A DNA stretch of 64,000 nucleotides, from assembly GCA_028715605.1 (NCBI GenBank), contig JAQURM010000002.1:124001-188000 (forward strand), in the 5' to 3' direction. The notes under the pieces were generated by a model. The model had not been told where the DNA came from. It made no database searches and saw only the letters and a program-made list of their open reading frames with translations. How positions within the stretch are numbered: the first letter of the stretch is position 1; each line of letters starts with the position of its first letter. Both the position numbers and the translations under genes were made by a program. Positions 4,634-22,088 of the stretch are shown piece after piece. Source of the DNA: Desulfovibrionales bacterium. Lineage in GTDB: Bacteria > Desulfobacterota > QYQD01.

Positions 4634-4671
4634 ATCTTTTGCCTATTTTCGTGTTACTCACAGTTTTTCAC

Positions 4672-4759: not shown

Positions 4760-4781
4760 TAGGTAACTAATAGGTAACTAA
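4760..4781. repeat. Putative arm-type integrase binding sites, left
   Basis: TAGGTAACTAA occurs twice in tandem (period 11). The same tandem pair is found near the right end at 15624-15644. Paired short direct repeats flanking both cores are what lambda-type integrases bind as arm sites; this function is inferred. Confidence 0.5.
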
Positions 4782-4828
4782 TTTGACCTCTGGGTAAAAC
4801 CCCTGGGTGACTAAGGAGGCCCACCAAT

Positions 4829-5965: not shown

Positions 5966-5999
5966 CCTTGACCTATACTAAAAGGTGGTATATAGTCCC

Positions 6000-6287
6000 A
6001 TGAAATGGACGGTAACGATCAGCCGGGAAGCCGGGAAACAAATTGCGAAACTCCCACAGATGGTCAGGGATTCGTTGATTGCGTTGATTAAAGAGATTGA
6101 GGTGAACGGGCCGGTCAGGGGCAACTGGCCCAACTACAGCGCCCTGACGGGGAACCGTTATCATTGTCATTTGAAAAAGGGCCGACCGACGTATGTTGCC
6201 GTCTGGGAGCTTAAGAATAAAAAAGACAGGTCTGTTGAGGTGGTTTATGCCGGAACCCATGAGAAAGCGCCCTATCAGAAACGTTGA
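6000..6287 (+). CDS. higB: RelE/ParE-superfamily toxin, HigB-like
   Basis: A 95-residue protein with the RelE/HigB pattern: an N-terminal strand and helices (WTVTISREAGKQIAKLP), the segment YHCHLKKGRPTYVAVWE, and a terminal strand with KNKKDRSVEVVYAGTHEKAPY. Family members are ribosome-dependent mRNA interferases. The ATG at 6000, preceded by AAGGTGG, is preferred over an in-frame GTG at 5985. The toxin gene precedes and overlaps the antitoxin gene by 29 bases, the HigBA order. It probably stabilises the element. Confidence 0.8.
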   Translation: MKWTVTISREAGKQIAKLPQMVRDSLIALIKEIEVNGPVRGNWPNYSALTGNRYHCHLKKGRPTYVAVWELKNKKDRSVEVVYAGTHEKAPYQKR

Positions 6288-6609
6288 ATTGCGTTTTAGC
6301 GGGCCAGTGAAACACAAGAAGAAGGCTATTGATGCGTTGAGGTCTCTGGGCTTCGCAGAGGTGTTTTTTTCTGGTGAAGCCATTCCATGGCGTGCGGCAT
6401 TCCCGGAATACACCGACGAACAATTGCCGGGCCGTATTCTGGCCGGAGCGCGGGTAAAAGAAGGGATGTCGCAGGTAAGGCTTGCCAAGTTGACGGGCAT
6501 TCCACAGCGTCACATCAGCGAAATGGAGAACGGAAAAAGGCCGATCGGCAAGAAGAATGCTAAACTTTTCGCAGAAGCATTGAAGGTTGATTACCGAATT
6601 TTCTTATAG
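6259..6609 (+). CDS. higA: Xre-family antitoxin, HigA-like
   Basis: A 116-residue protein whose C-terminal half is a classical Xre helix-turn-helix (GMSQVRLAKLTGIPQRHISE, then MENGKRPIGKKNAKLFAEAL, residues about 65-105). The N-terminal half (VELRFSGPVKHKKKAIDALR) would contact the toxin. The start at 6259 lies inside the toxin gene; an upstream in-frame ATG at 6247 is the alternative. It should neutralise the toxin and repress the operon. Confidence 0.85.
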   Translation: MRKRPIRNVELRFSGPVKHKKKAIDALRSLGFAEVFFSGEAIPWRAAFPEYTDEQLPGRILAGARVKEGMSQVRLAKLTGIPQRHISEMENGKRPIGKKNAKLFAEALKVDYRIFL

Positions 6610-6618
6610 GGGTAACTT

Positions 6619-6795
6619 ATGGATCAGAGGAAAAGTAAGAAACCGCAATTAAGGGTATTGCCAAAAAAGTCGAAGCCGTCAGACAGAAAGCCGCTGGTGT
6701 ACCCGGAAGTGCATTGCCGGATAGGGTTTTTGGATCAGCCGTTGCCAGAGAGCTTGCCACCAAAAAACGGGTTGACTTCACCGGAAGAAGAGTAA
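6619..6795 (+). CDS. Small hypothetical protein (58 aa)
   Basis: An ATG ten bases after the antitoxin stop opens a 58-residue frame rich in Lys, Pro and Ser (begins MDQRKSKKPQLRVLPKK, ends LPPKNGLTSPEEE). There is a weak AGGGG upstream. It shares direction and spacing with the toxin-antitoxin pair and could be its third gene. No recognised domain; it is probably disordered. Confidence 0.4.
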   Translation: MDQRKSKKPQLRVLPKKSKPSDRKPLVYPEVHCRIGFLDQPLPESLPPKNGLTSPEEE

Positions 6796-6853
6796 TCGTC
6801 TTGGCCCCCTTACGGGACGCCGGAATATTGAAGTGTTAGAATAAGGAGGCTCC

Positions 6854-7711
6854 ATGAACGTTAAGAATATCAAAACTATCCTGATTGTTTTTGTCTTTTT
6901 ATTCCCTGCCTGTGCGCCCCAATTAACAGTTCAACATACCTTCTTAACCGCGCGTGGTGTGTTGGTACCAAGGGAAGAATTTGCCCCAATACCTAAGTTT
7001 GATTCCACATCCACGTTCCGTTCTGCAAAAAGTGTCAAAGAGAATTCTGTTGTTGAGTTAGGAGTGTGGCGGAAAGTATATATTGAAAGGGAAAAAGTTA
7101 TCAGGCAGATCTTCCTTGCAGACATTAAAATTACCAATACTTCTACCACACCATACATAACGCCGGAAGAACTGATTATTTTCGATGCGGACAAAAACGC
7201 TCTAAGACTACTCCGGCCAGATGAATATGTGTATTACATTGAAGGGATGACATCAGAAGACGCATTAGGACAATCCACAGCATTGTCCGCGTATGCGGCT
7301 CGCACTCAGGCAAACCAATTTTATAACACCTACACGGCCCAGTCTTATTACGGGAGTACCTATGGAAGCGATTTTGGGGCTTTTTTTTCGGGCTTTGATT
7401 CAGGCATGAGTACCGCTGCAAGTATTCATGCTTTAAGTTTAGCACGCCAGGCAGCCGAAATAAATGAAATTATAAGAACCTTCCGGCTTTGCGCGCTCAG
7501 ACCTATACTGACCTTGCCTGACAGCAGCAATGTGGGGAGAGTTTGGAGTTTGACGGGAAATTTGCCAATTGAGATACATATTTTTGCAGGTGGAGATCAC
7601 CACATAATTAAACTAAACCACAATAAACCAGGGCTCGGAGGCACCCTCCCGGGTTTCCGTGGAATTTTGGAGGATGAGGAGGAGGTGATATGTAATGGCA
7701 GGTGTCAATAG
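6854..7711 (+). CDS. Putative lipoprotein of unknown function
   Basis: A 285-residue protein. The N-terminus has two lysines, a hydrophobic stretch and a lipobox (LFPAC, Cys at residue 20), so it should be lipidated and held in the inner or outer membrane. The mature part has a Tyr/Ser/Gly-rich central segment ([20 protein letters not shown], about residues 157-176) between beta-rich regions. AAGGAGG precedes the ATG. It is not a standard satellite gene and may be cargo. Its last 17 bases overlap the SSB remnant. Confidence 0.75.
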
Positions 7712-7856
7712 GGTTATTCTGGTAGGTTATCTTGGGGCCGATCCTGAAGTGCGTTATACGAAAAACCGGGGATCGGGGTCCCTGGCCCCGTATGTTTTAT
7801 ACATGCCCCGGAGATTTTTCAACTTTTTTGGGCTTGTGGGGAGAAATTCCCCTTGA
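7695..7856 (+). pseudogene. Truncated single-stranded DNA-binding protein (SSB) remnant
   Basis: The first 23 or so codons read [20 protein letters not shown] then YTKN, an almost perfect SSB N-terminus (strand 1 of the OB fold). After that the homology ends and the frame stops at 7854-7856, only 53 residues in total against about 110-180 for the family. It overlaps the lipoprotein end and has GGAGGTGAT just upstream. The rest of the gene appears deleted, with the following promoter region joined on. Confidence 0.75.
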
Positions 7857-7882
7857 CAAAGTGGGACAAAATGTCCCATACT
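7853..7882 (+). promoter_or_regulatory. Candidate promoter with a palindromic operator in the spacer
   Basis: TTGACA (7853-7858) is followed after 18 bases by CATACT (7877-7882). The spacer contains a perfect 7-bp inverted repeat, TGGGACA-AAA-TGTCCCA (7862-7878). A repressor bound there would block the promoter of the terminase-like gene. The promoter is a fair match; the operator role is inferred. Confidence 0.4.
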
Positions 7883-7917
7883 TGAGAAAATTTTTCCCCA
7901 AAATAGGTGAAAACGGC

Positions 7918-8367
7918 GTGGAAAAGAAAAAAATTAAACCCAGACAGATGAAGTTTTTGCAGAAATATGTGGAGCTAGGTGATCTTGGAAAGGCATACGT
8001 GGCCGCCGGATATACAGCAAAAAACAAGCATTCAGCGTCTCAAGGTGGCAGTATGATGTTGAAAAAGCTTGATAAACTCATGGATTATCGGGAGATTTTC
8101 GACTCGATCGGCCTTACGGAGAGGTTTCTAGCCGAGAAGATGAAGGATTTATTGTCCTCGCCCGACCAGCAGGTGGCCGCCCGCACCCTGGCCGTTGCCA
8201 CCAAGTGCATAGGCTGGCAGAGGGAAATTATAGGTCTCGATGAAGGCTCTGAGATCGTTATCATGACGAGGAAGCAGGCAGCATCACAGCCCGCAAGCGG
8301 CGGTGATTCAGACGACATCCAGGCCAAGACAGCGGCATTGCCTGCTTCCCAGGGTATCATGAGGTAA
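7918..8367 (+). CDS. Terminase small subunit-like protein
   Basis: A 149-residue protein whose first half matches the phage terminase small-subunit pattern: KPRQMKFLQKYVELGDLGKA then YVAAGYTAKNKHSASQGGSM, LKKLDKLMDYR, and later LLSSPDQQVAARTLAVATKC. In phages this subunit recognises the pac/cos site. In satellites a stand-alone TerS redirects packaging of the helper phage to the satellite. The GTG at 7918 is chosen because the similarity begins immediately after it. There is no large subunit in the window, which supports a satellite role. Confidence 0.65.
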   Translation: MEKKKIKPRQMKFLQKYVELGDLGKAYVAAGYTAKNKHSASQGGSMMLKKLDKLMDYREIFDSIGLTERFLAEKMKDLLSSPDQQVAARTLAVATKCIGWQREIIGLDEGSEIVIMTRKQAASQPASGGDSDDIQAKTAALPASQGIMR

Positions 8368-8494
8368 TTTCAACACAGCTCAGCAGGGCCTAAGAAGGAT
8401 ATGGCCGTATCCTTTTACGGGTCTGGCGCTCCACCGCCAGGCCCGGCCCCGATTTATTCTTTAAAAGGTGGAAGCCATTGGTGGAGGTGGGTTA

Positions 8495-9124
8495 ATGTCA
8501 AAAAGAAAGACCAGAAGTGACCGGCCTATTTTCCTCGAAAAAACATTTAAACTTCTTTTTTTTGAAAGAAAAGTGCCTGTTTCGCTTAAGATAGGCGCCA
8601 CGTTACAAGACTGGGAAACCCTGTATACATATTTTTCGGACGATCCTGAAAGTCTGGGAACCCTGATATCCAGCCTCTTCCTGCATCCTGTCTTTAATGA
8701 ACATCTTAAAGATACTTATTCGCCACGTCCACGGGGGGTGCATTGTGTAGAAGGGAAAGGCGGGGAAACAGAAGAAGAGTTCATGGCAGAAGCCAGACGG
8801 TACCTGGCCGCTGCGTATGTCATATGTCAATATTGGTTAAAAAAGGATGAACAGCCGCAATTCTTTAGAGACTTGATGCAGAAAGAGAAAATTGTCACGG
8901 CAAGAGGGGGATATAGTGCCATAAGAGCTACCCTGGAACTGTTCGAGGAGAAATTCGGAGAGCGTAGGCGCCAGCTTGGATTGCTTCAAAAAACCAAGCT
9001 CCGTGGTTTCAAAGAAACGTATCTAAGACAGAAGACCAACCCGCACCTGGTGCCAGCTCAACACTTCTTTGAAAAAACCGGTCATAAATTGACCATCGAT
9101 GAACTCACTGACTATCTACCCTAA
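8495..9124 (+). CDS. Hypothetical protein
   Basis: A 209-residue soluble, mostly helical protein (FERRRQLG-type basic helices, EEFMAEARRYLAAAYVICQY). ATG 8495 follows GGAGGTGGG. I do not recognise a domain. It lies between the terminase-like gene and a good terminator, so it ends the first transcription unit of the element. Satellite elements often have small capsid-modifying or helper-interfering proteins in this place; nothing in the sequence itself shows such a role. Confidence 0.6.
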   Translation: MSKRKTRSDRPIFLEKTFKLLFFERKVPVSLKIGATLQDWETLYTYFSDDPESLGTLISSLFLHPVFNEHLKDTYSPRPRGVHCVEGKGGETEEEFMAEARRYLAAAYVICQYWLKKDEQPQFFRDLMQKEKIVTARGGYSAIRATLELFEEKFGERRRQLGLLQKTKLRGFKETYLRQKTNPHLVPAQHFFEKTGHKLTIDELTDYLP

Positions 9125-9151
9125 GTAACATCTATCCAAAACACACAGTCT

Positions 9152-9187
9152 AAGGCTAACTTGTTTGAGACAGGTTAGCCTTTTTTA
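9152..9187 (+). terminator. Intrinsic terminator after the hypothetical gene
   Basis: AAGGCTAAC (9152-9160) pairs with GTTAGCCTT (9174-9182), followed by a run of six Ts. Confidence 0.85.
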
Positions 9188-9190
9188 TTT

Positions 9191-9233
9191 GGGGGTTTCT
9201 AAAATGTCATTTTTGGCATCTTAAGAAACCCCC
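9191..9233. repeat. Perfect 10-bp inverted repeat upstream of the AlpA-like gene
   Basis: GGGGGTTTCT (9191-9200) is matched by AGAAACCCCC (9224-9233), with a 23-base centre. It lies just upstream of the probable alpA promoter and has no T-run, so a binding site or replication signal is as likely as a terminator. Confidence 0.5.
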
Positions 9234-9251
9234 TAACTAACTGATATACCG

Positions 9252-9279
9252 TTGATTTTTACGCTAATTGTGATATTAT
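9252..9279 (+). promoter_or_regulatory. Candidate promoter of the alpA-primase operon
   Basis: TTGATT (9252-9257) and TATTAT (9274-9279) with a 16-base spacer, 40 bases upstream of the AlpA-like start. Confidence 0.4.
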
Positions 9280-9319
9280 GTTCATCCATAATGAGCACAT
9301 ATCTTAAAGGAGGTTGAAT

Positions 9320-9547
9320 ATGCAGAAATCTATCATTCCACAGGCTTTATCCCCCGCTCAAGTCGAGCAATTCTTTGGCATTCCTACCGGGACACTGGCA
9401 AATTTGAGGTGGAGAAGGGAGGGTCCCAGATTTTTTCGAAGTTTATCGAGAAAAGTTATCTACAAAACTTCCGATATCCAAGCTTGGCTCTTCTCAAGTC
9501 CTGTGCAGACGAGGGATTCGATCGGGAGGTCCGGCGGCCATGAATAG
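9320..9547 (+). CDS. AlpA/excisionase-like helix-turn-helix protein
   Basis: A 75-residue protein with the small MerR-like winged helix of excisionases and AlpA regulators: LSPAQVEQFFGIPTGTLANL, then RREGPRFFRSLSRKVIYKTS, DIQAWL. ATG 9320 has AAAGGAGG six bases upstream; an in-frame TTG directly after the Shine-Dalgarno is not credible. In P4 and PICI elements the equivalent gene controls excision and activates the replication genes downstream, which fits its position ahead of the primase. It overlaps the next small frame by eight bases. Confidence 0.8.
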   Translation: MQKSIIPQALSPAQVEQFFGIPTGTLANLRWRREGPRFFRSLSRKVIYKTSDIQAWLFSSPVQTRDSIGRSGGHE

Positions 9548-9698
9548 CCTGAGAGGGAATCAGTTAAAGCGATCAGGCCGCCGGGCCTTACGTTGGATGG
9601 TTTTAACCTTATTGGATTTGCTGCGCTGGCCCTGGTGCCCGCGGGCTTCCAGGCTACTTGACCGATTGGACAATGAGCGTGGGGCAAGGAATGGATAA
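9540..9698 (+). CDS. Small hypothetical protein (52 aa), translationally coupled
   Basis: The ATG at 9540 overlaps the end of the AlpA-like gene and the TAA at 9696-9698 overlaps the ATG (9691) of the primase gene. The 52-residue product has an Arg-rich start and a short hydrophobic Trp/Leu segment (WMVLTLLDLLRWPWC). GGAGG lies ten bases upstream. The overlaps at both ends favour a real, coupled gene, but no homology is recognised. Confidence 0.4.
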   Translation: MNSLRGNQLKRSGRRALRWMVLTLLDLLRWPWCPRASRLLDRLDNERGARNG

Positions 9699-11766
9699 AC
9701 GAGATATTCTTTCACGCCTGGACTTCAAAAACTTCTACAAGAGACTTGTTCCCACCCTTAGGGAGCATGGGGGGCAAGCCATAGGTCTTTGCCCCTGGCA
9801 TGATGACCGGAGTCCCTCTTTAAGTGTAAATCTCAAAACCGGCCTTTATTATTGCCACGCTTGCGGTGCTAAGGGAGATGTCTTTACTTTCTACCAGCAA
9901 TTAAACAATGTAGATTTTCACACCGCCTTAAAGGAGATTGGAGAGATGACCAGTATTAAGACTGAACCGCAAAGGGTGGTGTCCCGGTTCGAATACAGCG
10001 ACCTGGCCGGTAATATCCTGTATGCCAAAGAACGTTTGGAACCTGGCAGTAACGGACGTTCAAAAGAGTTCCGCTTTAAACATCCGGTGGGGGACAAGTG
10101 GCAGTCTGGCCGAGGCGGGGAAGCCGTCCCGTACAGGTTGCCTGAGTTGGCCAGGTCAAAATACGCCTTCATCGTCGAAGGTGAAGCGAAAGCCGATCTC
10201 TTGCATTCATGGGGCCTGGCGGCTACCTGTCTGGATAGCGGGGCTTCCAGTCCGTGGCATAACCATTATCTTCAATATTTCGCAGACAAGGAAAAGATGG
10301 TCATTTTACCCGATAACGATACCCCGGGCCGGGACTATGCCAAAAGGATAGCCGTGGTTTTGCATGGCAACGTAGGGCAGATAAAGATAGTGGCCTTGCC
10401 TGGACTTCAAGAAAAGGGAGACGTTATAGACTGGACAACAATAGAGGGCAACAATAAGCAGAGGCTATTAGCCGTTGTTCAAGAAGCCGATGAATGGAAG
10501 CCGCAGGCTAAGGATTTAAGCTTTCTGATGAAGGGCTCAGACCTGGCCGGTATGGACATTAAAGTCGAATGGGCAGTCAAAGACTTTATCCCAAAGCAGG
10601 GTATAACGCTTCTACATGGCAAGGGTGGTATCGGCAAAACGTGGTTAAGCTTTATCCTGGCTGATGCAGTAAGTAAGGGTATGCCATTTACGGGGATTGA
10701 AACCCAGGCCATGCCGGTCGTTTATATTGACCTGGAAAACCCTCTACCTGCTGTAATCGAGCGTGTAAGAAAGATTGGCTGTGATAACGTCCTTTTTTGG
10801 CACGCAGGAGGAGGCAAAAAGAAACCACCTAAGTTGGACGGGAAGGATTTCCTTGAGTATGCAGACTTGCCACCCGGGGCATTGCTGATTTTCGATACGT
10901 TACGGGCAGCGCAAAGTGGGGATGAAAACAAGAGCCAGGATATGGCCCTGGTTATGAATAATTTGAAGACTCTCAGGGATGGCGGATTTACTATCCTGCT
11001 CCTGCACCACACGCCCAAAGGAAACGACCGGACTTATAAGGGGAGCACGGCCATTTTTGACTTAGCCGATCACGTCTTAGGACTTCATAAAGTGCGTAGA
11101 AACAACCTGGACGCAGAAGTAGATGACGACGAGGACACGGACTGCTACTACCGCTTTGGAACTAAAGAGAAGACCAGGTATCAGCCCTTTCATGTTTTCC
11201 TGGCCTTCGATCCTGAGAAGGGATTTGTCCCGGCGCCTGATCCGGATGAGGAGGCCATGAAAGATTTACATGGGCTAATAGTTGAACTTAAAGCCTCTTC
11301 AGGGGATTGGCCTATTCAGGGGAAGATTGTTGAGAAGGCCAAAGAGGTAATTGGACTAAGCAGGGATAGAACCTTAAGACTGCTGGGCAAGGGGGAGAAG
11401 GAAAAACTTTGGACTTCCGAAAGCCTGCCCTCTAAGAAGAATGCAAAGGTTTATAGGGCAAGTTCAGTTTTCGAGTTTTCGGGCACTATATATAGCCAGA
11501 AAACTAGAAAACTGGCTGAGACAGAAGACCAGTTTTCTGGAAAACATACCCCACCTAATAGCCCTGGAGATAGCATAAATACTGAGTTTTCCAGTTTTCG
11601 GGAGGGGTTACAGAAAACTCAGAAAACTGATTCTTCCGGGGTAGGCTGTCTAACCTACCAGGAAACTGGTCGTTGTCCTGGGGCGGATTGGATTGAAGAG
11701 CAACTAAAGGACGAGGCTTTATATCTTTCCCTTGAGGAAGAGCAGGGAGCCTTACCATGGAGCTAA
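9691..11766 (+). CDS. CHC2-type primase fused to RepA/AAA_25-type helicase
   Basis: A 691-residue replication protein. A DnaG-type zinc finger is at residues about 33-58 (CPWH with CHAC). A TOPRIM-like region follows (YAFIVEGEAKADLL, about 157, with ILPDNDTPGRDYA further on). A RepA-like hexameric ATPase has Walker A LLHGKGGIGKTW near 306, Walker B ALLIFDTL near 392, and LLLHHTPKG after it. It should prime and unwind the excised element. The start at 9691 overlaps the stop of the 52-aa frame; 9658 (TTG) and 9673 (ATG) are in-frame alternatives. The last 170 residues are divergent and low in similarity. Confidence 0.88.
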   Translation: MDKRDILSRLDFKNFYKRLVPTLREHGGQAIGLCPWHDDRSPSLSVNLKTGLYYCHACGAKGDVFTFYQQLNNVDFHTALKEIGEMTSIKTEPQRVVSRFEYSDLAGNILYAKERLEPGSNGRSKEFRFKHPVGDKWQSGRGGEAVPYRLPELARSKYAFIVEGEAKADLLHSWGLAATCLDSGASSPWHNHYLQYFADKEKMVILPDNDTPGRDYAKRIAVVLHGNVGQIKIVALPGLQEKGDVIDWTTIEGNNKQRLLAVVQEADEWKPQAKDLSFLMKGSDLAGMDIKVEWAVKDFIPKQGITLLHGKGGIGKTWLSFILADAVSKGMPFTGIETQAMPVVYIDLENPLPAVIERVRKIGCDNVLFWHAGGGKKKPPKLDGKDFLEYADLPPGALLIFDTLRAAQSGDENKSQDMALVMNNLKTLRDGGFTILLLHHTPKGNDRTYKGSTAIFDLADHVLGLHKVRRNNLDAEVDDDEDTDCYYRFGTKEKTRYQPFHVFLAFDPEKGFVPAPDPDEEAMKDLHGLIVELKASSGDWPIQGKIVEKAKEVIGLSRDRTLRLLGKGEKEKLWTSESLPSKKNAKVYRASSVFEFSGTIYSQKTRKLAETEDQFSGKHTPPNSPGDSINTEFSSFREGLQKTQKTDSSGVGCLTYQETGRCPGADWIEEQLKDEALYLSLEEEQGALPWS

Positions 11767-12065
11767 TCTCTGAACTCAGAAGCCAGGGTATAACTATCTC
11801 TCTTGTGGGAGACAGGCTTAAGATCGAACCACGGGAGAAGGTCACACCGGAACTTATCACAAAAATAAAGACCCACAGGCAGGAGATAGCCAGGGAGCTA
11901 AGGCAGCCCCAGGAGAAAAAAACGAATACGGCTTACTGCTCATGGCTAAAAAAGAAGGTCGAGGAATGCGGGCCGGTATGTTGTGAGGAACGGCCCGGAC
12001 GGGGTGTCACATATTGTTGTAACCACTTAAGGACTTATATGGCGAAGATCGGACGGTGGAAGTGA
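11757..12065 (+). CDS. TubC N-terminal docking-domain-like protein
   Basis: A 102-residue protein overlapping the primase end by ten bases. Residues 1-45 (ELISELRSQGITISLVGDRL, then a LTPEL-like segment and KTHRQEIA) look like the small docking domain found at the N-terminus of TubC-type megasynthases and in many phage and plasmid proteins downstream of primases. The C-terminal half has a cluster of six cysteines (two of them CC pairs) that may bind a metal. Its role in the element is unknown. Confidence 0.6.
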   Translation: MELISELRSQGITISLVGDRLKIEPREKVTPELITKIKTHRQEIARELRQPQEKKTNTAYCSWLKKKVEECGPVCCEERPGRGVTYCCNHLRTYMAKIGRWK

Positions 12066-12319
12066 TGCAGAGAAAGTCTTCAGAACTTTTAGAACAAGTA
12101 AAAGAAATAATTGAAAGCTATGACTTTGCGGTAACTCTGAGACAGATATACTACCAGCTCGTGACAAAACAGATCATACCCAACCAGCAAAAGTATTATG
12201 CCAAACTGTCAAGGTTATGCCTGAGCAGAGGCTACCGGGTTGGGATAAGGGCTGTTGGGGATCAATGTCAAGGCCCCGAAGTTTTTGGAGGGCTACAGGG
12301 TTGGCAAAACGTAGAATGA
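12065..12319 (+). pseudogene. Truncated protein of a phage/plasmid family, probably frameshifted
   Basis: The ATG overlaps the previous stop (TGATG). Residues 1-50 contain VTLRQIYYQLVTKQIIPNQQ and YYAKLSRL, a motif I associate with longer proteins of mobile elements. After LSRL the sequence is no longer family-like and ends at 84 residues. In the next frame the DNA reads LPGWDKG and then SRPRSFWRATG, resembling how the family continues, so a frameshift near 12215-12230 is likely. This rests on recall of the family pattern. Confidence 0.4.
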
Positions 12320-12358
12320 GGAGATCGTCAGGGCTGGTTATGCCTGGCTTCCGTTGAT

Positions 12359-13051
12359 CTATATTTTTTTGCTTCTGATTCTGATGCCAGCAAGGACCGC
12401 AAGACCAGAGCCGATAAGAAGCATGGTGGCTGGTTCGGGGATGGGGTCGGGGACTAGGTCAGGTACGGGGGCGGCGACATTTCCGTCACGCACGGCAATG
12501 GCGTAGTAGTCGCCCCCGCGCGTACCGATCTCGCGCTGGCTGCCGTCGTAAAAATAGAAGCCCAACGCGGACTTCAGAGTGAAAGGATTCTCCGTACTCG
12601 ACCAGTAGAAGTCGTTAATTAGATTCTGAAAATCACCGGTGTTTATTAAGCCATAGCCCGATTGACGAACGTTGTTCAAGGTGTCACGCCATCCCAGGTT
12701 AGCAAGCTCTGTATAGAACAGGTGCCCCATCTCACTGCTCGTGATGTTGTAGCCGAGGTTGGTGGTGCCGTCATAACCCCACACATATAGGCCATCCACT
12801 GTTGACGGCAGACGCCAGTCATCATAAATATGCCCGCCGAAATTCACAGTCAAATCAGATGCCCAAGTCATCTGATTTTGCCACCTATCATGGGAATTCG
12901 TGTAATCGTACCACGTAATATTAAGGTCATTGTCATAGATAAGTCGATTGCCGAGGATGTCAGTCCCACGGTTGAATAGTTCGGCATGGGCACAGATCGA
13001 ACCCCCAAAAACCATTACGAACGTAACGAATACCACTAATCCCCTCTTCAT
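12359..13051 (-). CDS. Secreted DUF1566-type protein with PEP-CTERM anchor
   Basis: A 230-residue exported protein. Signal peptide at residues 1-21 (KRGLVVFVTFVMVFGGS, cleavage after AHA). The middle matches DUF1566: WYDYTN, MTWASDL, DDWRLPSTVDGL, FYWSSTEN and a final AIAVRDGN. The C-terminus is a textbook PEP-CTERM signal: IPEPATMLLIGSGLAVLAGI followed by basic RIRSKK, the sorting signal for an exosortase, which must be encoded elsewhere. ATG 13051 gives the best signal peptide; in-frame ATGs at 13060 and 13117 exist. It reads against the replication genes and is probably cargo co-oriented with the trypsin-TPR gene. Confidence 0.85.
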   Translation of the reverse strand: MKRGLVVFVTFVMVFGGSICAHAELFNRGTDILGNRLIYDNDLNITWYDYTNSHDRWQNQMTWASDLTVNFGGHIYDDWRLPSTVDGLYVWGYDGTTNLGYNITSSEMGHLFYTELANLGWRDTLNNVRQSGYGLINTGDFQNLINDFYWSSTENPFTLKSALGFYFYDGSQREIGTRGGDYYAIAVRDGNVAAPVPDLVPDPIPEPATMLLIGSGLAVLAGIRIRSKKI

Positions 13052-13135
13052 CTTTCCCATCCTCTTGCGAATAAGGTCATCACTTACCTCCGAGCGGCGG
13101 TCCCGAGGTTTTTGCATGTTACAGATAAGGACAAG

Positions 13136-15337
13136 CTACTTCTCCTCCTTTTCTTTCTTTAACGGTACATCGGGATAGATTTTAGAGTAAAGTTTTTCGT
13201 ATAATGGTGAACCTGTCGTGCTGAGGTTATGGAGGGCTCCGACTGCGTTTTCCCGATCGCCTTTTTGTAGATATATGATACCGGCCCTATAGTAATAATC
13301 AGCCGCAAGCACCCCTTGACCTCTTCGGCCGTAGCAACATCCGAGATTCAATAATGCTGCGGCTTCGTCCTTATCTATTTCCAGCGCCTCTTTGTACGCA
13401 CCTTCCTCATCCTCCAGCCTTCCCAGCTTTGAGTAAACAAGCCCGAGATTAAAATAGAGGCTACTGAGGATAGCGCTTGAAAGATCACTCTTGAGATGGA
13501 TGGCTTTCAAATAGGCTGATTGAGCGCTGTCGTAATTTTTATTCTCATAGTATGCACGTCCTAAAAAGTAATGGGCATACGGGTCATCGGGCGCGGCCTC
13601 AATGTACAAGTTAAGGACAGATATGGCCTCTGGATATTGGCTAAGGTTGAAATATGACAAACCAAGCATATGCAGCGCATAAGTGTCTTCCGGGTCAAGT
13701 TCTATTACCATCTTATATGCGTTGACGGCCTTGGCATACTCGCCTGTTTGACAATAAGAATAAGCCAAGCGACTGTAAACGTGGATTTGACGACTACCCC
13801 TATACTGGCTCCAATCTGGAGATACAGAACCATTTGATATTAGAAATAAGAGCTTTTCGTAACATTGAATGGCTTGCTTATAATTACCAATCTTATAATA
13901 TCTGGCAGCCAGATACTCTATGTATTCACCGTTGTCAGGTTCAATTTTAACAGCCTGACTTAAGGCTTTTATAGCCTTGTCGTGTTGACCAGATTTCTCG
14001 CAAGATCGTCCAAGACAATAGTAAGTCTCCGCTAAAATATCCGGGGAAGCCATTGGATTGGCCTTTAGCTTATCAACTATTTCCTGCAAAGTCTTGGCGG
14101 CGTCTTTCTGATGTCCAGTGTTTAGATATGCAAAGTATATCATAACCGAGGTTTGTCTTCGGGGATTTTTTGCGGTCGCGAGAAACGCTTGACGGGCTTT
14201 TTGGGGATTACCAGCAACCAGATACGCCCTTCCGAGCCTTACATGATAGCGGGCATCGGGGTTAAGACCTATAGCCTTTTGGTATGCTTTAATAGCCCCG
14301 GCGTTATCCCCCGATGCAGATAGGGCTTGCCCCAGGATGTAATGGGGTTGGGCTAAGTCCGGCTTATTCCGAATAATCTTGTTACACAACTCGGTGATAT
14401 ATTGTACGAGTTGAGGGCAACCTACAGGTTCTTCCGGGACTAAGGGTAAGTGTACAGACAAATCTTCTAATAGAGGCAAAGCCCCAGCGTAGTCTTTGCT
14501 ATTTATCTTATGTAGCGCCTCTTGATACCAGTCATAACATAATTCAGGAGTCATAGGCTCTGTCATAGGCTCTGGAGCGGGAGCTGCCTCAGGAGCGGGA
14601 GCTGCCTCAGGAGCCGGAGCTGCCTCAGGAGCCGGAGCTTCGGCTGACAATTTCACAGACGAATTCTCTTCGTTTTGTCCGGGAAGAAGGTTTGCCACAT
14701 ATTTAACAGGGATTGCAAAGTTAAGGTTTTGTCCGCCTTCAACAAGGAAGCTTGCGATACCAATTACTTCGCCCTTTGTGTTAAATACAGGGCTTCCACT
14801 GCTCCCCGGTGAGACAGGGGCCGTTATTTGAATAAGGCCACTTTGTCTGCGCACGCCGCTTATAATGCCATTAGAAATCGTAGTTTCATACCCAAAGGGA
14901 CTTCCTATAACTATGATATCCTCGCCTATCTCTGGTTTGTAGTTTATTGCCAACCTGACCGCCGGGAGTTCTTTGCTTTCTACCTTTAAAATGGCAATGT
15001 CATTTTTTGCATCAAATATGATAAGATCCTCTATGCGAAGAACCGCGCCATTTTCCATCTTGACAAAGGACGCCGCCTCTGGTGATTTTGTTGACCCTGT
15101 CAACACATGGTAGTTGGTTGCAATAACGCCATTGGAGCCAACAATAAACCCGCTTCCTATAACATCCGCTTGTCCGTCTTTATAAGTATAAATGGTCACA
15201 ACGGAGTTTTTCTGCTCCAAAACTGCGTCCGGGATTTTAGCATCGGCCAATGAAGCGATAAAAAGAAGAAAGCTGAGGATAAAGAAAAGTTGCTGTAGGT
15301 ACCCCTTTCTTAGTTCTATCATCATCTCCACCCCCAT
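13136..15337 (-). CDS. Secreted trypsin-like (DegP/HtrA-type) protease with TPR repeats
   Basis: A 733-residue protein. An N-terminal signal peptide (QQLFFILSFLLFIASLADA) leads to a trypsin-fold domain with an intact triad: His in ATNYHVLTG (about 75), Asp in AKNDIAILKV (about 112) and Ser in SPGSSGSPVF (about 181). A repetitive Ala-Pro-Glu linker (about 232-258) joins it to at least nine TPR-like units (for example AGAIKAYQKAIGLNPDARYH, KAVNAYKMVIELDPEDTYAL) up to residue 720. There is no PDZ domain, unlike DegP. It should act in the periplasm or outside the cell, with the TPRs presenting substrates or partners. It is the largest cargo gene of the element. Confidence 0.88.
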   Translation of the reverse strand: MGVEMMIELRKGYLQQLFFILSFLLFIASLADAKIPDAVLEQKNSVVTIYTYKDGQADVIGSGFIVGSNGVIATNYHVLTGSTKSPEAASFVKMENGAVLRIEDLIIFDAKNDIAILKVESKELPAVRLAINYKPEIGEDIIVIGSPFGYETTISNGIISGVRRQSGLIQITAPVSPGSSGSPVFNTKGEVIGIASFLVEGGQNLNFAIPVKYVANLLPGQNEENSSVKLSAEAPAPEAAPAPEAAPAPEAAPAPEPMTEPMTPELCYDWYQEALHKINSKDYAGALPLLEDLSVHLPLVPEEPVGCPQLVQYITELCNKIIRNKPDLAQPHYILGQALSASGDNAGAIKAYQKAIGLNPDARYHVRLGRAYLVAGNPQKARQAFLATAKNPRRQTSVMIYFAYLNTGHQKDAAKTLQEIVDKLKANPMASPDILAETYYCLGRSCEKSGQHDKAIKALSQAVKIEPDNGEYIEYLAARYYKIGNYKQAIQCYEKLLFLISNGSVSPDWSQYRGSRQIHVYSRLAYSYCQTGEYAKAVNAYKMVIELDPEDTYALHMLGLSYFNLSQYPEAISVLNLYIEAAPDDPYAHYFLGRAYYENKNYDSAQSAYLKAIHLKSDLSSAILSSLYFNLGLVYSKLGRLEDEEGAYKEALEIDKDEAAALLNLGCCYGRRGQGVLAADYYYRAGIIYLQKGDRENAVGALHNLSTTGSPLYEKLYSKIYPDVPLKKEKEEK
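14574..14640. repeat. 18-bp tandem repeats encoding the Ala-Pro linker
   Basis: About three and a half copies of an 18-bp unit (minus strand reads GAGGCAGCTCCGGCTCCT with variants), encoding EAAPAP repeats in the trypsin-TPR protein. A nearby 12-bp duplication (GTCATAGGCTCT) encodes EPMT twice. The copy number may vary by slippage. Confidence 0.8.
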
Positions 15338-15650
15338 TTATGTCATTTGATCCTATAAGAGTCTATTAAAACAGTCAACGAATAACTGGCTTATTGTGCT
15401 TTGAAAATTTTCGCCCCGGCGAATCTGTTCGCCCAGGTCGAAGATACGCCTTAGGCGTGCGAATCTGACTATGGTGCGACTGGTCAGGAGTGGTTCGTAA
15501 GGCAGGGCGTTAACTTAGGCGATTTTCTGGCTGGCGGATATTGCGTAGGAACAAAAGTGTAAGGCTAAAACAGGCTGTATTAGATTCCTGTGCAGCCTGC
15601 TTCCGCCTGAATTTTTGCTTCCAGGGTAACTAATAGGTAACTAAAATTAA
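15338..15650. other. Intergenic right end of the element, with a decayed ORF
   Basis: No intact gene is visible. On the plus strand a frame from about 15454 to 15562 ends with GATGQEWFVRQGVNLGDFLA and GGYCVGTKV then a stop, which looks like the C-terminus of a lost gene. A palindromic TTCGCCCCGGCGAATCTG sits at about 15409-15426, and CGCCTTAGGCG at 15448-15458. Confidence 0.4.
15624..15644. repeat. Putative arm-type integrase binding sites, right
   Basis: GGTAACTAA occurs twice with period 11, the same tandem pair as at 4760-4781, and here lies 45 bases from the right core. Confidence 0.5.
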
Positions 15651-15682
15651 AAGGGCTAGAAGCTCAATTTCTTCTAGCCCTT
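15651..15682 (-). terminator. Element-borne terminator downstream of tRNA-His
   Basis: AAGGGCTAGAAG (15651-15662) pairs perfectly with CTTCTAGCCCTT (15671-15682). On the minus strand it lies eight bases after the CCA end and is followed by a U-rich stretch. Its spacing from the tRNA copies that of the original terminator at 4535-4576, though the stem sequence differs. Confidence 0.8.
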
Positions 15683-15689
15683 GATTTTG

Positions 15690-15739
15690 CTGGGGTGAGC
15701 GGAGGGACTCGAACCCTCGACCTCTGGGGCCACAACCCA
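15690..15739. repeat. Attachment site (right), within tRNA-His
   Basis: Identical over 50 bases to 4584-4633. It overlaps the 3-prime part of the intact tRNA-His gene. Confidence 0.9.
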
Positions 15740-15768
15740 GTGCTCTAACCACCTGAGCCACGCCCACC
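15691..15768 (-). tRNA. tRNA-His (GTG)
   Basis: A complete cloverleaf on the minus strand. The acceptor GTGGGCG pairs with CGCTCAC, the anticodon loop TTGTGGC gives anticodon GTG, the T-loop is TTCGAGT, the discriminator is C73 and CCA is encoded. The extra 5-prime G (G-1, at 15768) typical of tRNA-His is present opposite C73. The 3-prime part is supplied by the inserted element. Confidence 0.97.
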
Positions 15769-15778
15769 ATTGAAGATC

Positions 15779-15855
<77 letters not shown>

Positions 15856-16018
15856 AGGCTATTACAGCAGCCATCTTTAACAAGATTTTGGCGCCTTGTA
15901 AAGACAAAATTCAGCGCTGGCGTCTGCTTCGGTCGCATATTAAAAAGTTATTGCAAGGTATTCACTTTACCGCTATGGTTACGATCACGCCTCATATCTA
16001 CGCCAGGGTGAAAAAGCC

Positions 16019-16942
16019 ATGTTTGATCTTCACCAGTTAGAAGTTTTCTGCCGCGTCCTGGAATTAAAGAGCTTTTCAAAGGCTGCGGAATCAGTATATC
16101 TTACCCAGCCGACGGTGAGCGGGCATATTCAGGCCCTGGAGCAGTTTTTGGATACGCGTCTCTTTGATCGTCTGGGTAAGGAGGTTGTGCCTACCAGGGC
16201 CGGAGAATTGCTTTATAAATATGCCAGGCAGATGTTGAGCCTGCGGTCCGAGGCCCGGCGAGAGTTAGAGCTTTTTCTGGGCAGGGTCAAGGGAGAGATG
16301 ACCATCGGCGCCAGTACCATCCCGGGGGCATATATCCTTCCTGAGCTGATAGGTTCTTTTAAAAAAGAGCATAGCGACATCTATATCACCCTGACTATAG
16401 CTGATACTACGGGCGTTATAGAAAGCCTTCTGGCGGGAAAGATCGAGATAGGGGTGGTGGGGGCTAAAATAGAGGATAAAAGGCTCCAGTACCGGGAGTG
16501 GGTAAGGGACGAGATGGTGATTGTAGTCCCCTCCGGCTATAAGTGGGCAGGACGACGTTATGTCGAGGCAGATGAACTCAAAAAAGAGGCCTTCATGCTG
16601 CGCGAGCCAGGCTCCGGCACGCGTATGACCAGCCTCAAGGCCCTTGAGAAACTGGGCATGGATGCAAAAGAACTTAACATCATTGCCGAGATGGGCAGCA
16701 CCGAGGCCGTGCGCCAAGCCGTGAAGGCGGGAATAGGCATTAGTATTTTATCCCGGCGGGCGGTCAAAGACGATATTGCCGCGGGTTCCTTGCACGGACT
16801 GAGGGTAAAGGGGTTAGACTTATGGCGTGAGTTTTATGTCGTAGTTCTTAAAGGGCGTACGCTTTCTCCGATTACCGATTCCTTTCTTGATTTTTTGTTT
16901 TTGCGTGCAACCGGTTTTACCGGGGAGGAAATCCCGGCATAA
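16019..16942 (+). CDS. LysR-family transcriptional regulator
   Basis: A 307-residue LysR regulator. The N-terminal winged helix reads [40 protein letters not shown]. The effector domain contains the usual landmarks ([47 protein letters not shown]). In sequence style it resembles the CysB-like and selenium-metabolism-associated LysR proteins of anaerobes, which would fit the selenoprotein formate dehydrogenase at 47290, but the target is not shown. The ATG follows AGGGTGA. It is convergent with the thioredoxin/creatininase operon, so it probably does not control that promoter directly. Confidence 0.92.
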
Positions 16943-16953
16943 TGACTCGCCCC

Positions 16954-17496
16954 TTATCTCTTTAAGAGCGGCGCCATATCCTTTTCGAGGACATCCATTT
17001 TAAGCTCGCCTATGTATCTTTTTATTATATTCCCTTTTGAATCAACAAGAAAACTCACGGGGATGTAGTAGATACCCCCGTAATCCTTACATACCGCATT
17101 ATTGCCTATCAGAACAGGGTAGGTAATGCCGGCTCTTTTGATAAATTCGGCCAGGATTTTCTTGCCGGCAGATGTGGTAACATCGTCAAGCGAGATACTG
17201 ATAATTTCAAATCCCTTGCTCTTATATTTCTTGTACACAGCAATGAAAGCGGGTATCTCGGCCCGACAGGCAGGACACCCCGTGGCCCAGAAGTTAACCA
17301 GGACAACCTTGCCTTTAAAATGGCTGAGGCTTACCATGCGGCCATCCATGTCTTTCAGGGAAAAATCGGCGGCCCTGACGTTTTTTGCCTCTGAATCAGG
17401 AGATGTATAAAGTTGTACGGAAACTAACAAGATGAATACTAAAGCAATAAACCACCTTACTGAATGTCCAAAGTAACGACTTAAGTTATCTGCCAT
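16954..17496 (-). CDS. TlpA/ResA-like membrane-anchored thioredoxin
   Basis: A 180-residue protein with one N-terminal membrane segment (residues 14-30) and a periplasmic thioredoxin domain of the AhpC/TSA-Redoxin type. The active site is CPAC (Cys74, Cys77) in VLVNFWATGCPACRAE, with the cis-proline at YIPVSF. Such proteins reduce disulfides in cytochrome c haem sites or other periplasmic proteins. It starts four bases after the creatininase stop, so the two form an operon. Confidence 0.9.
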   Translation of the reverse strand: MADNLSRYFGHSVRWFIALVFILLVSVQLYTSPDSEAKNVRAADFSLKDMDGRMVSLSHFKGKVVLVNFWATGCPACRAEIPAFIAVYKKYKSKGFEIISISLDDVTTSAGKKILAEFIKRAGITYPVLIGNNAVCKDYGGIYYIPVSFLVDSKGNIIKRYIGELKMDVLEKDMAPLLKR

Positions 17497-17499
17497 GTT

Positions 17500-18219
17500 T
17501 TACTCCCTGAACTGTTCGATTCTTTCTGCCAGGTTGACGAGTTCGTCCGCTGCCGCATATAACAATTTTTTGCCTTTTTCCGTATTGGCCCTGGCCGGGT
17601 TGCCCCAGACACCATTCGGCCAGAATTTTCTCTTATTTCTTACCAGGATGAGATTGGGGAATGCCGGATATTCTTCCGGACTTGTGCCCTTGACCCATTC
17701 CGGGCGCAGGTAGAGCATGACTGACGTTTCTACCTCTCCGGCATGCGAATCACCGGCTGTTTCTACAAGACCCCGGGCGGCCCTTCCAACAAGATCGAGT
17801 ATGCTTAAAACCGCTATGTTGGCCTCAGGCAGGGCAGAGAGCAATTCCTCTCCGGCATCGGTAATAGCGGCCAGGTGTGTCCCGCCCGCGTGTCCGGAGA
17901 TGAGGATGAAATTCCTCAACCCCTGGGAATAGAGGGACGTAACGATGTCTATAGTCAGCCTGCGCAGGGTTCCTGCTTTTATGGTGATTGTGCCGGGATG
18001 TCCGCTTGTACTGCGGCACAGGCCATAATGGATGGGCGGAGCCACAAAGAGGGGCCTTTTCGAAGATGCGGCCCTGGCTGTTTCGTAGATATGTACGGTG
18101 TCTGTAGAGAGGGGCAGGTGGAAACCATGCTCTTCTACCGAGCCATAAGGGATGACGACCGTACGGGTCTTTTTCAGCCCTTCGACAAATTCAAGCATGG
18201 TAAGTTCTTCGAGGAGCAT
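17500..18219 (-). CDS. Creatininase-family amidohydrolase
   Basis: A 239-residue protein with creatininase-fold metal-binding motifs: IPYGSVEEHGFHLPLSTDT, the GHPGT segment, ISGHAGGTH, and DSHAGEVETSVML. The family includes creatinine amidohydrolase, the F420-pathway protein ArfB and the peptidase MftE, so the substrate cannot be named. The residues expected to hold the two metal ions (Glu, His, Asp, His, Glu) are all visible. It is the first gene of an operon with the TlpA-like protein and is divergent from the PHP gene. Confidence 0.85.
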   Translation of the reverse strand: MLLEELTMLEFVEGLKKTRTVVIPYGSVEEHGFHLPLSTDTVHIYETARAASSKRPLFVAPPIHYGLCRSTSGHPGTITIKAGTLRRLTIDIVTSLYSQGLRNFILISGHAGGTHLAAITDAGEELLSALPEANIAVLSILDLVGRAARGLVETAGDSHAGEVETSVMLYLRPEWVKGTSPEEYPAFPNLILVRNKRKFWPNGVWGNPARANTEKGKKLLYAAADELVNLAERIEQFRE

Positions 18220-18301
18220 AGTGGAATCTTTGTACGACCTGGAATGACGCCTTTTTTGAAATCTAATTGACTTTCAGGGGCATGTCAATAATAATTGCCG
18301 G

Positions 18302-19183
18302 ATGATTGACTTACACATACATACCATAGCCAGTTCCGACGGACAGCACGCCCCGGAGGAGATATTTGCCCTGGCCGGGAGGCATGGCCTTAAGGCTATT
18401 GCCTTTGCCGACCATAACAGCGTGGGCAGTGTGCCGGAAGGGGTTCGCCTGGGAAAAGAGACCGGCATAGAGTTCGTGCCGGCCATAGAGATCAACACCT
18501 TCTATTCAGACCTTGACCTGCACCTCCTGGCCTATTTTATCGATTATGAAGGCACATCTGTTCAGGACTGGCTGGCTGCCATACGGGTAGAAAAGGAAAA
18601 GCAGGCGCTGGGGAGGATCGCCAGGCTGCAGGAATCGGGTTTTGTCCTCACGGAAGAAGATGTACGCAGGCATTCGGGCGGTAAGATTCCAACCGGATAT
18701 TCTTATCTCAAGGCCATCTTGGACCGAAAAGAAAATAAGGAAGACCCAAGGCTCAGGACATATACTGAAGGAAATGGCGCCAGGTCGCCTTATTATCGAT
18801 TCTATCATGATTGGCTGAAGGGCGGGAGACCGGCCTACGTGCCCATTGAGGCCCTGGCTACACCCGGCGTCATAAGGCAGGTACTGAAGTGGAAGGCTGT
18901 TCCTGTTTTGGCTCATCCCATAGACACGCCGGATGCAGTCATTATGGGCCTTATAGGGGCCGGTTTGATGGGTCTGGAGGTCTATAACAGCTACCACAGC
19001 GCGGAACGGGTTAAACATCTCGAGGTCATAGCCGGGAAACACAACCTCCTTATGACCAGCGGCTCTGATTTCCACGGCCAAAAGATGAAGCCGGATATCG
19101 AAATGGGGAGATTGCAGGGAAACAAGATGTCCCTCCTTGACGCCCTCAAAGCGGCTAAGGCCCGTCTTGATGCGGCTTCCTGA
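18302..19183 (+). CDS. PHP-domain phosphoesterase
   Basis: A 293-residue PHP (polymerase and histidinol phosphatase) protein. Metal-binding motifs are seen: DLHIHTIASSDG at the start, FADHNSVG near residue 40, EINTFYSDLDLHLLAYF near 65-80, PVLAHPID near 200 and a final GSDFHG near 256. It resembles the RNase AM/YciV family, which removes phosphate from nucleoside 3-prime,5-prime-bisphosphates or trims RNA 5-prime ends. A second PHP protein is at 43440-44288. Confidence 0.88.
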   Translation: MIDLHIHTIASSDGQHAPEEIFALAGRHGLKAIAFADHNSVGSVPEGVRLGKETGIEFVPAIEINTFYSDLDLHLLAYFIDYEGTSVQDWLAAIRVEKEKQALGRIARLQESGFVLTEEDVRRHSGGKIPTGYSYLKAILDRKENKEDPRLRTYTEGNGARSPYYRFYHDWLKGGRPAYVPIEALATPGVIRQVLKWKAVPVLAHPIDTPDAVIMGLIGAGLMGLEVYNSYHSAERVKHLEVIAGKHNLLMTSGSDFHGQKMKPDIEMGRLQGNKMSLLDALKAAKARLDAAS

Positions 19184-19263
19184 TGTATATTTCCCGGGAG
19201 TAGTTCAAGCCGATTGCTTTTTACATGAAATGTATTATTATTTAATCAAAAGGAAGTGTATTC

Positions 19264-19716
19264 TTGAGTGTAAAGGTAGTCTGCCAGAATAAGAAGGCAG
19301 CGCATGAGTATTTTATCACTGAAAGATATGAAGCAGGTTTGGTACTTACGGGAAGTGAGGTCAAGTCTCTGCGGCAAGGAAAGGCAACCCTGGCCGATGG
19401 TTATGCGCAGGTGGTCGGGGGTGAGGTCTTGCTGTATAATGTGCATATAAGTCCGTATTCTCATACGCACCATGAGGAGCAGGACCCGACCCGCACACGC
19501 AAGGTTTTGTTCCACCGGCAGGAGATAAGAAGGCTGATCGGTAAGATACAGGAGAAGGGATTAACGCTCATACCGACCAAGATATATTTTAAAAATGGCT
19601 GGGTGAAGGTAGAGCTGGCCCTGGCCAAGGGTAAAAAGTTATACGATAAAAGAGAGAGTATAAAGAGGAGGGAAGAAGAAAGGGAGATAGCCAAGCGCTA
19701 TCGAGGTCGAAACTGA
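19264..19716 (+). CDS. smpB: SsrA-binding protein SmpB
   Basis: A 150-residue SmpB, the protein partner of tmRNA in rescue of stalled ribosomes. Signatures: CQNKKAAHEYFITERYEAGL, LTGSEVKSLRQGKATLADGY, the HISPYSHT motif and a basic C-terminal tail (ESIKRREEEREIAKRY). Length is normal. The start is a TTG, with AAGGAAG nine bases upstream. The ssrA gene follows ten bases after the stop, so protein and RNA partners are adjacent. Confidence 0.97.
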   Translation: MSVKVVCQNKKAAHEYFITERYEAGLVLTGSEVKSLRQGKATLADGYAQVVGGEVLLYNVHISPYSHTHHEEQDPTRTRKVLFHRQEIRRLIGKIQEKGLTLIPTKIYFKNGWVKVELALAKGKKLYDKRESIKRREEEREIAKRYRGRN

Positions 19717-19725
19717 CATATCCAT

Positions 19726-20078
19726 GGGGGCGAAACGGCTTCGACGGGGATATGGAAGTTTAAGCTGCATACCGAGGTCCTGTTGGCTCGTTAAACAAAC
19801 AGGAAAAAACAAAAGCAGACAACTGCGAATACGCACTGGCCGCTTAATAGGCCAGCGTCCTTCTGATTCGATCCTGCGGAACTAGAAAGGACGACGGATA
19901 GCGGGATAGCATCCCCTCAATCGCCTGCTGAGAGGGGAAGCGAAACTTTATGCGGGCTAATCTCCTGGTTGCCTTGCCCGGGGTGGAACCAGGGGGTGAA
20001 ATTGAACCCCAGGCTATGTATGTAGATGCTTAAATGGAGTATCTTCGGACGCGGGTTCGACTCCCGCCGCCTCCACCA
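19726..20078 (+). ncRNA. ssrA: Transfer-messenger RNA (tmRNA)
   Basis: A 353-nt tmRNA. The 5-prime end GGGGGCG pairs with CGCCTCC before ACCA, and the tRNA-like part has the conserved GAAACGGCTTCGACGGGGAT start and GGGTTCGACTCCC T-arm. The tag frame at 19815-19847 reads ADNCEYALAA followed by TAA, so the degradation tag ends in the normal ALAA but contains a cysteine. Pseudoknot segments fill the rest. Confidence 0.97.
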
Positions 20079-21737: not shown

Positions 21738-22088
21738 ATGGCGGGAGCTTATATATTATATAGACTCTACTTTTTTCATCTGAGCTGAATATGAGAAGTA
21801 TGGTATAGAAATTTGCTAAAAAACACAACAGGATAAAATTGTAATTAAACGAGGCTCTTGCAAAAGTCCCGGTTCTGTCATTCCCACAGCGATTCTGAGC
21901 GGAAATCTGGTTCTAACTGTTCGCTTCGGCGAATCTGCCTTTGACACGACAGAAAAAAAAGCGCTCAGAGATGCTTGGATTACCCACTTGAAATGAGAGA
22001 GAACCATTAATGATGATTTGTTATTCGGGGCTGTAAGTGGAACATTCACAGGGTGCCCCGGTTGACGCGGCAGACAGAGTGATTTAGT
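21738..22088. repeat. Intergenic region with a dispersed repeat fragment
   Basis: No gene. Bases 21850-21915 (GAGGCTCTTGCAAAAGTC, then TGTCATTCCCACAGCGATTC) match, in inverse orientation, the right end of the repeat at 30387-30523. TTCGCTTCGGCGAATCTG at 21922-21939 is a variant of the TTCGCC-GGCGAA palindrome family. Confidence 0.5.
21755..21760 (-). promoter_or_regulatory. Candidate -10 box of the TIR module
   Basis: A perfect TATAAT on the minus strand lies 18 bases upstream of the 85-aa gene start. The region is AT-rich and no clear -35 box is visible. Confidence 0.3.

Follow-up and report, generated by a model that had tools for sequence, protein, structure and literature searches.

The stretch of DNA analyzed here (the window) comprises 64,000 nucleotides of a Desulfovibrionales bacterium (assembly GCA_028715605.1, contig JAQURM010000002.1, positions 124,001 to 188,000 of the forward strand). 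Within it lies an 11.1 kb island inserted in a tRNA-His gene, and at the tRNA end of this island two genes encode proteins that look exported, one with a trypsin-like domain followed by tetratricopeptide repeats (TPRs) and the other with a DUF1566 domain and a PEP-CTERM tail. We conclude that the two genes are probably exchangeable cargo of a small island of satellite-like type and act at the envelope, altering what the cell binds or displays there. The cargo genes and the boundaries of the island are as follows.

12359 to 13117, minus strand: cargo gene 2, encoding a 252-aa DUF1566/Lcl_C protein that has a signal peptide and a PEP-CTERM tail (likely start at 13051)
13136 to 15337, minus strand: cargo gene 1, protein with signal peptide, trypsin-like domain (H77, D113, S180) and about 10 TPRs, 733 aa (from Pfam, PDB and motifs)
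15350 to 15378, minus strand: promoter-like site (9/12) upstream of the cargo genes, weak in that such sites are no commoner than in shuffled sequences
4572 to 4633, no strand: attL, a partial copy of the tRNA-His 3' end, 62 nt, 97% identical to attR
4762 to 4781, plus strand: left copy of the 20-nt repeat GGTAACTAATAGGTAACTAA, a probable integrase arm site
15625 to 15644, plus strand: right copy of the probable arm site
15651 to 15682, no strand: 12-bp hairpin with T-rich flanks at the island edge, terminator-like on both strands
15678 to 15739, no strand: attR, mostly inside the intact tRNA-His gene
15691 to 15767, minus strand: tRNA-His(gtg), the integration target

The window's own genome (G000) was compared with four congeners (G001 to G004). 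In two of the four, G001 and G002, the site is empty: the left flank (to window 4633) joins tRNA-His directly (from window 15678 or 15675), which confirms the left end of the insertion. With the 62-nt repeat at its bounds and empty sites in two congeners, the limits of the island exceed chance. For the right flank, no long match was obtained in G004.

In G003 the tRNA-His site is occupied by a related island, both ends of which were seen, on two contigs. Its integrase is 84% identical to the window integrase, its attL and arm repeat are the same, and the 20-nt repeat stands at the matching place. At the integrase end, a MerR-HicB-like protein and then HicA follow the integrase. At the right end, homology to the window stops at window 15619, and the slot adjoining the tRNA holds one gene of unknown kind and a SocA/Panacea antitoxin gene. 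Because this related island holds other genes in the slot at the same tRNA-His site, the cargo slot is exchangeable. The toxin-antitoxin-type cargo of G003 lies at L157 3891-4825 and L148 9312-10181.

The two cargo proteins

Both reading frames had been called at these positions and on this strand by a first-pass annotation made from the sequence alone, which also described them as reading against the replication genes and sitting at the island end; the order of the reading frames agrees, with both genes opposed to integrase and primase and placed at the tRNA end. The signal peptides that it gave to both proteins were recognized by eye, and both products look exported. The two genes would probably be co-transcribed from near attR.

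The 733-aa protein matched Trypsin_2 (E = 5.6e-29) and many TPR families in Pfam (TPR_2, 148 bits). By homology, His77 (in TNYHVL), Asp113 (in KNDIAIL) and Ser180 (in PGSSGSP) are the catalytic triad. DegP-type PDB matches cover residues ~43-231 only; beyond residue 231 the matches are TPR chains (in both cases among the best 60 of 181 matches), and the TPR units were counted by eye. The protein is like the DegP/HtrA periplasmic proteases in its trypsin-like domain, matching triad and signal peptide. Unlike them, it shows no PDZ domain among the family matches listed (25 of 31 and 25 of 53 in two profile searches) and has about 10 TPRs instead, in line with the earlier description of a DegP-type triad without PDZ and with nine or more TPRs. 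Its TIGR02037 score of 117 bits is far under the cut-off of 416. Once exported to the periplasm, the product would act as a DegP/HtrA-type protease whose TPR arm holds protein partners. Phage records gave DegP-like partial matches only, and there were no matches in viral contigs.

The second protein matched Lcl_C/DUF1566 (PF07603) with E = 1.3e-7 and 32.3 bits, slightly under the curated cut-off of 34.9, and is 49% identical to a homolog in genome G214 (locus L134) that scores 55.1 bits with the same profile. The exosortase-sorting tail assigned to it in the first pass was borne out, with PEP-CTERM scores of 25.9 bits for PF07589 (cut-off 20.7) and 18.6 for TIGR02595 (cut-off 16). The internal ATG at 13051 is the likely start, because this methionine is invariant in our alignment A2 and an AGAGG motif lies ~9 nt upstream. 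After export, the tail would serve exosortase-dependent sorting to the outside, where the C-type-lectin-like DUF1566 domain would be displayed as a binding surface. DUF1566 was absent from phage records, and plasmid records held one partial match (34%); viral contigs gave no match for alignment A2 and one 26% match for alignment A3. No solved structure matched the protein credibly.

A diversity-generating retroelement (DGR) acts on the gene of the G214 homolog and is located as follows.

L134 (G214:C231) 3484-6419: DGR with a DUF1566 PEP-CTERM target; template ~4785-4922, reverse transcriptase 4935-6419

The variable region differs from the template repeat at 28 positions over 140 nt, 26 of them at template adenines, and stops immediately before the PEP-CTERM tail; the reverse transcriptase is adjacent. 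Positions targeted by this DGR were also more variable in 14 other homologs (0.82 vs 0.50, p 0.0003), and among the four proteins from islands described below, pairwise difference was 0.72 at DGR-type positions and 0.42 in the framework (permutation p 0.005). Because this homolog is a DGR target, the DUF1566 domain of the window protein is probably a binding surface. DUF1566 is reported in PMC6642488 to be the commonest Pfam domain among DGR targets, and the G214 homolog is like the variable proteins with DUF1566 described there. Unlike them, the window protein has no template repeat nearby: none was detected in window 1-20000, nor near the island loci L131, L138 and L147, with L134 detected as the positive control. 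Our literature search found no work joining PEP-CTERM with a DGR. The reverse transcriptase at L134 also gave a MutS_I-like match at its C-terminus.

A second point of comparison is Legionella Lcl, whose C-terminal DUF1566 domain is described in the accessible portion of PMC11162425 as C-type-lectin-like and which recognizes sulfated glycosaminoglycans. The window protein would be like Lcl in being an exported binding protein with this domain. Unlike Lcl, it is without collagen repeats, has a PEP-CTERM tail and falls under the curated PF07603 cut-off.

Cargo at other tRNA islands

DUF1566 homologs (E<=1e-10) were encoded at 20 places in 16 of the 297 genomes searched. Four of these places, the window included, lie between tRNA att repeats; in the other three, which belong to three other families, the repeats are exact.

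L131 (G098): tRNA-Arg, att 47 nt; integrase first and DUF1566 gene toward the tRNA end, like the window
L138 (G207): tRNA-Thr, att 47 nt; DUF1566 gene between exact repeats
L147 (G236): tRNA-Gln, att 27+20 nt; 2.5 kb remnant in which a fragment of the integrase is left and the DUF1566 frame is open

The PEP-CTERM tails of the window and L138 proteins exceed the Pfam cut-off, and that of L147 is slightly under it (19.2 vs 20.7); that of L131 is, by eye, a VPIPGA-type variant only. At L132 (G132) an integrase is accompanied by a tandem DUF1566 gene 6.3 kb away, and no att repeats were found there. The tree places the four island proteins apart from one another (4 label changes), with no starred branches and without firm support, and a single ancestral island behind all DUF1566 cargo, though possible, is not supported. 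A wider class search of 46 genomes added one genome with a match, G317, and the stretch examined there has no integrase. At L138 10560-12260, an RDD membrane protein adjoins the island DUF1566 gene and is followed by two small open reading frames that may be a toxin-antitoxin pair.

The full-length trypsin-TPR protein was found in 2 of the 297 genomes, its own and G004, and the trypsin part alone matched in 13 more. The G004 relative (L026 2295-4175) lies ~1.7 kb past a tRNA-Arg(acg). The sequence that G004 shares with G000-G003 stops at or just beyond the 3' end of this tRNA (566 or 580), and beyond it G004 shares with the window, dispersed short repeats aside, only the trypsin-TPR gene and parts of its upstream region. 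The gene and its upstream DNA are accessory in G004, where they stand without DUF1566. An island at the G004 tRNA-Arg is likely; the 6.8 kb contig carries no integrase. About 100 residues, including the His and Asp, are missing in frame from the G004 protein, at a 6-nt microhomology, and the remaining frame is open.

Two dispersed ~100-nt repeats (L026 86-201 and 4218-4318; window 21749-21840) occur in many copies in each of G000-G003, where the matches total 40 to 46 in each genome, and in G004 one copy sits exactly where the trypsin-TPR homology stops downstream. Beside the G004 gene are a second Trypsin_2 protein with no evident signal peptide (L026 5454-6161) and an NYN-domain protein (L026 1004-1645).

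Islands were also found without reference to cargo, through relatives of the integrase or primase, and three of these were delimited by att repeats on one contig. At L176 (tRNA-Met, 49 nt) the cargo comprises a Sel1+Trypsin_2 protein with a signal peptide, a DUF3800 gene and a nuclease, and at L186 (tRNA-Asn, 51 nt) a PEP-CTERM protein lies next to the tRNA. Exported cargo was therefore present in two of the three delimited islands, the window being excluded from this count. At the remaining integrase loci (among them L177, L178, L180-L185 and L187-L191) no att sites were found, and their cargo was therefore left uncounted. The His, Asp and Ser motifs of the L176 trypsin are retained, by eye. 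A close relationship of this protein to the window protein was ruled out by its very long branch in the trypsin tree, and for this reason we regard it as an independent protein of like build.

It could be argued that genes for DUF1566 PEP-CTERM and HtrA-TPR proteins are common in the envelopes of this phylum and are picked up by islands without selection. Trypsin-TPR proteins of ~340-490 aa are found elsewhere in the phylum, and 15 of the 20 DUF1566 places have no integrase within 10 kb, although several are on short contigs that could hide some. The places with an integrase at this distance nevertheless reach about five times expectation (5 of 20 vs 1.06 expected, Poisson p 0.005). Leaving out the window did not remove the excess (4 of 19 vs 1.03 expected, p 0.02), nor did leaving out both the window and G145, a genome in which integrase copies are repeated many times (4 of 17 vs 0.64 expected, p 0.004). 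The exported cargo of islands found independently of it also speaks against unselected pickup, as do frames that stay open and a ratio of nonsynonymous to synonymous substitution (dN/dS) of ~0.37 between the remaining parts of the two trypsin-TPR copies. We regard this explanation as unlikely.

Function of the cargo and alternative explanations

On the reading that we favor, the island, which has an integrase, helix-turn-helix (HTH) regulators and a primase-helicase, inserts in tRNA-His, and its cargo pair would change what the envelope binds or displays. Carriers would gain from this, for example through adhesion, through binding to a matrix or by keeping out phages or rivals. Phage exclusion by the pair is possible; sequence cannot tell which of adhesion, matrix binding and phage exclusion applies. 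The results suggest that islands of this kind can offset their cost by altering the cell surface.

Several observations weigh against this reading. The pair is not a conserved unit: the recurrence in other islands that the first-pass annotation had proposed as a check did not appear, as both proteins occur together in the window's genome only (1 of 297). On the other hand, the finding that it had named as contrary to its proposal, the two genes together in chromosomes in a housekeeping role, did not turn up. The exosortase that it had asked for was not detected in the assembly at hand by PF09721 or TIGR02602, nor at E<=1, and sorting of the PEP-CTERM protein is accordingly unproven here. The assembly is 97.5% complete and does not prove the absence, which would be explained most simply by a contig or replicon missing from it. 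The lectin-like fold is taken from the family, since the AlphaFold2 model of the single window sequence reached a predicted local distance difference test score of 34 and was not used. The contrast in variability may come in part from framework residues that are fixed (Trp, Gly, Ala). The in-frame loss of His and Asp in G004 may mean that protease activity is dispensable or that this copy has decayed. Neither a helper phage nor a packaging gene was shown for the island, and the G003 island carries toxin-antitoxin genes at those ends of it that could be seen. The proposal of envelope cargo, first made from the window alone, stands insofar as DUF1566 with PEP-CTERM recurs at other tRNA islands and the slot is swapped in G003; it did not extend to L179 (tRNA-Arg, 47 nt), the third island delimited independently of cargo, which has no evident exported cargo.

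Without an exosortase, the PEP-CTERM protein could stay in the membrane and the genes could be passengers of a decaying or silent operon that is being lost. The in-frame loss of catalytic residues in G004 and the remnant island at L147 fit such decay, as does the failure to find an exosortase. However, strong exosortase matches are present in three of the four congeners (G001, G003 and G004) and G000 itself has 10 PEP-CTERM matches, so the gene may be in an unassembled part; at L147 the DUF1566 frame is still open though most of the integrase has been lost. We consider decay very improbable. No cluster homologous to the G001 exosortase cluster (L071) was present in three G000 stretches compared.

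A more specific proposal is exclusion at the envelope. The surface DUF1566 protein would bind or cover the receptors used by phages, or the incoming particles themselves, and injected or tail proteins would be attacked in the periplasm by the trypsin-TPR protein, so that competing phages are kept from the host of the island. The location on an island would suit this, and so would the antitoxin gene in the same slot of G003. SocA/Panacea antitoxins are a kind of gene often tied to defense. Trypsin domains also occur in some PADLOC models, and the window's trypsin domain matched RT-Protease_XI (E = 1.7e-17) and LmuA (E = 1.7e-9), in both cases through the protease domain only; the prominence of DUF1566 among DGR targets points the same way. 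Yet no PADLOC family spans the whole of either protein, the matches being partial and confined to protease or TPR parts, and adhesion or nutrition would account for the same features. Exclusion in this form seems unlikely as well. Broader still, and in our judgment improbable, is the idea that the satellite-like tRNA islands of this phylum carry a class of outward-facing cargo, consisting of exosortase-sorted lectin-fold binders, similar to those diversified by DGRs, and secreted trypsins on helical-repeat arms, that recognizes and excludes rival phages or cells extracellularly. Such a class, if real, would be an extracellular counterpart of the intracellular defense hotspots of known satellites.

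Satellite cargo has mostly been mined for intracellular defense. Exported cargo, as found here, recurs in five families of one phylum, at tRNA islands that differ in their integrases and replication genes. If our preferred reading of envelope cargo is right, minimal islands would carry surface traits such as adhesion, matrix and phage exclusion from one environmental bacterium to another, and the island cargo slot would be a place to look for extracellular functions.

Other island genes and known satellites

The remaining genes of the island are read in the opposite direction to the cargo.

4829 to 5965, plus strand: tyrosine integrase (PF00589, E = 5e-27)
6193 to 6609, plus strand: HTH_3 phage-type regulator (PF01381, E = 4.4e-12; PHROG transcription regulators)
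6854 to 7711, plus strand: open reading frame without a family match in profile searches
7732 to 8367, plus strand: open reading frame with a weak terminase small subunit match (phrog_51, E = 1.3e-6), which may reflect an HTH part only
8468 to 9124, plus strand: open reading frame without a family match in profile searches
9314 to 9547, plus strand: HTH_17, AlpA/excisionase type (PF12728, E = 2e-5, 25.2 bits, below the cut-off of 27; phrog_66 excisionase, E = 5.5e-4)
9658 to 11766, plus strand: primase-helicase with CHC2 zinc finger and AAA_25 (phrog_239 DNA primase/helicase, E = 3.6e-33)
11757 to 12065, plus strand: small protein with a TubC_N-type domain, last in the replication block (PF18563, E = 8.5e-11)

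In the portion of PMC13376191 available, a tRNA-integrated island or phage satellite is defined by att repeats, an integrase, regulator and replication genes, a size of 7-20 kb and no structural genes. The window island has att repeats, integrase, regulator and replication genes within its 11.1 kb, no structural genes were recognized in it, and its site is empty in congeners. The weak terminase match is its sole packaging-type signal. Searched against viral contigs, the window primase gave just two matches (30-31%).

The PICMI satellites of Vibrionaceae, as far as described in the accessible part of PMC10803314, are small elements with an integrase, an AlpA-type HTH protein (PF05930/PF12728), a primase and no capsid genes, and their accessory genes lie in a hotspot that follows the primase. 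The window island is similar in size, in having an integrase (PF00589) and a primase, in showing no capsid genes and in the place of its accessory genes; its candidate AlpA-type protein matched PF12728 below the cut-off. The PICMI primase is of the DUF3987/DUF5906 kind, whereas that of the window is CHC2+AAA_25, and the Fis regulator of PICMI had no match among the island proteins scanned. Unlike PICMI, the window island has a tRNA-His target, exported cargo and no known helper phage.

The surface-protein cargo of SaPIbov2 is of a Gram-positive kind, and the other genes of that island are different. The window island resembles it as a satellite-type island with surface-protein cargo, namely Bap, according to the part of PMC7785521 available. 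Because of Bap, surface cargo on satellites is of a known kind, and the starting premise that satellite cargo usually serves intracellular defense was too narrow. The window differs from SaPIbov2 in carrying a PEP-CTERM lectin-like protein and a putative periplasmic protease. The available part of PMC9122126 has nothing on exported cargo. What was not met in the literature searched (mostly titles) is the variant in which exosortase-type binders akin to DGR targets recur at tRNA islands, as do secreted trypsin-solenoid proteins.

A small open reading frame similar, by eye, to that with the TubC_N-type docking domain at window 11757-12065 also follows the primase in L176 (8541-8915).

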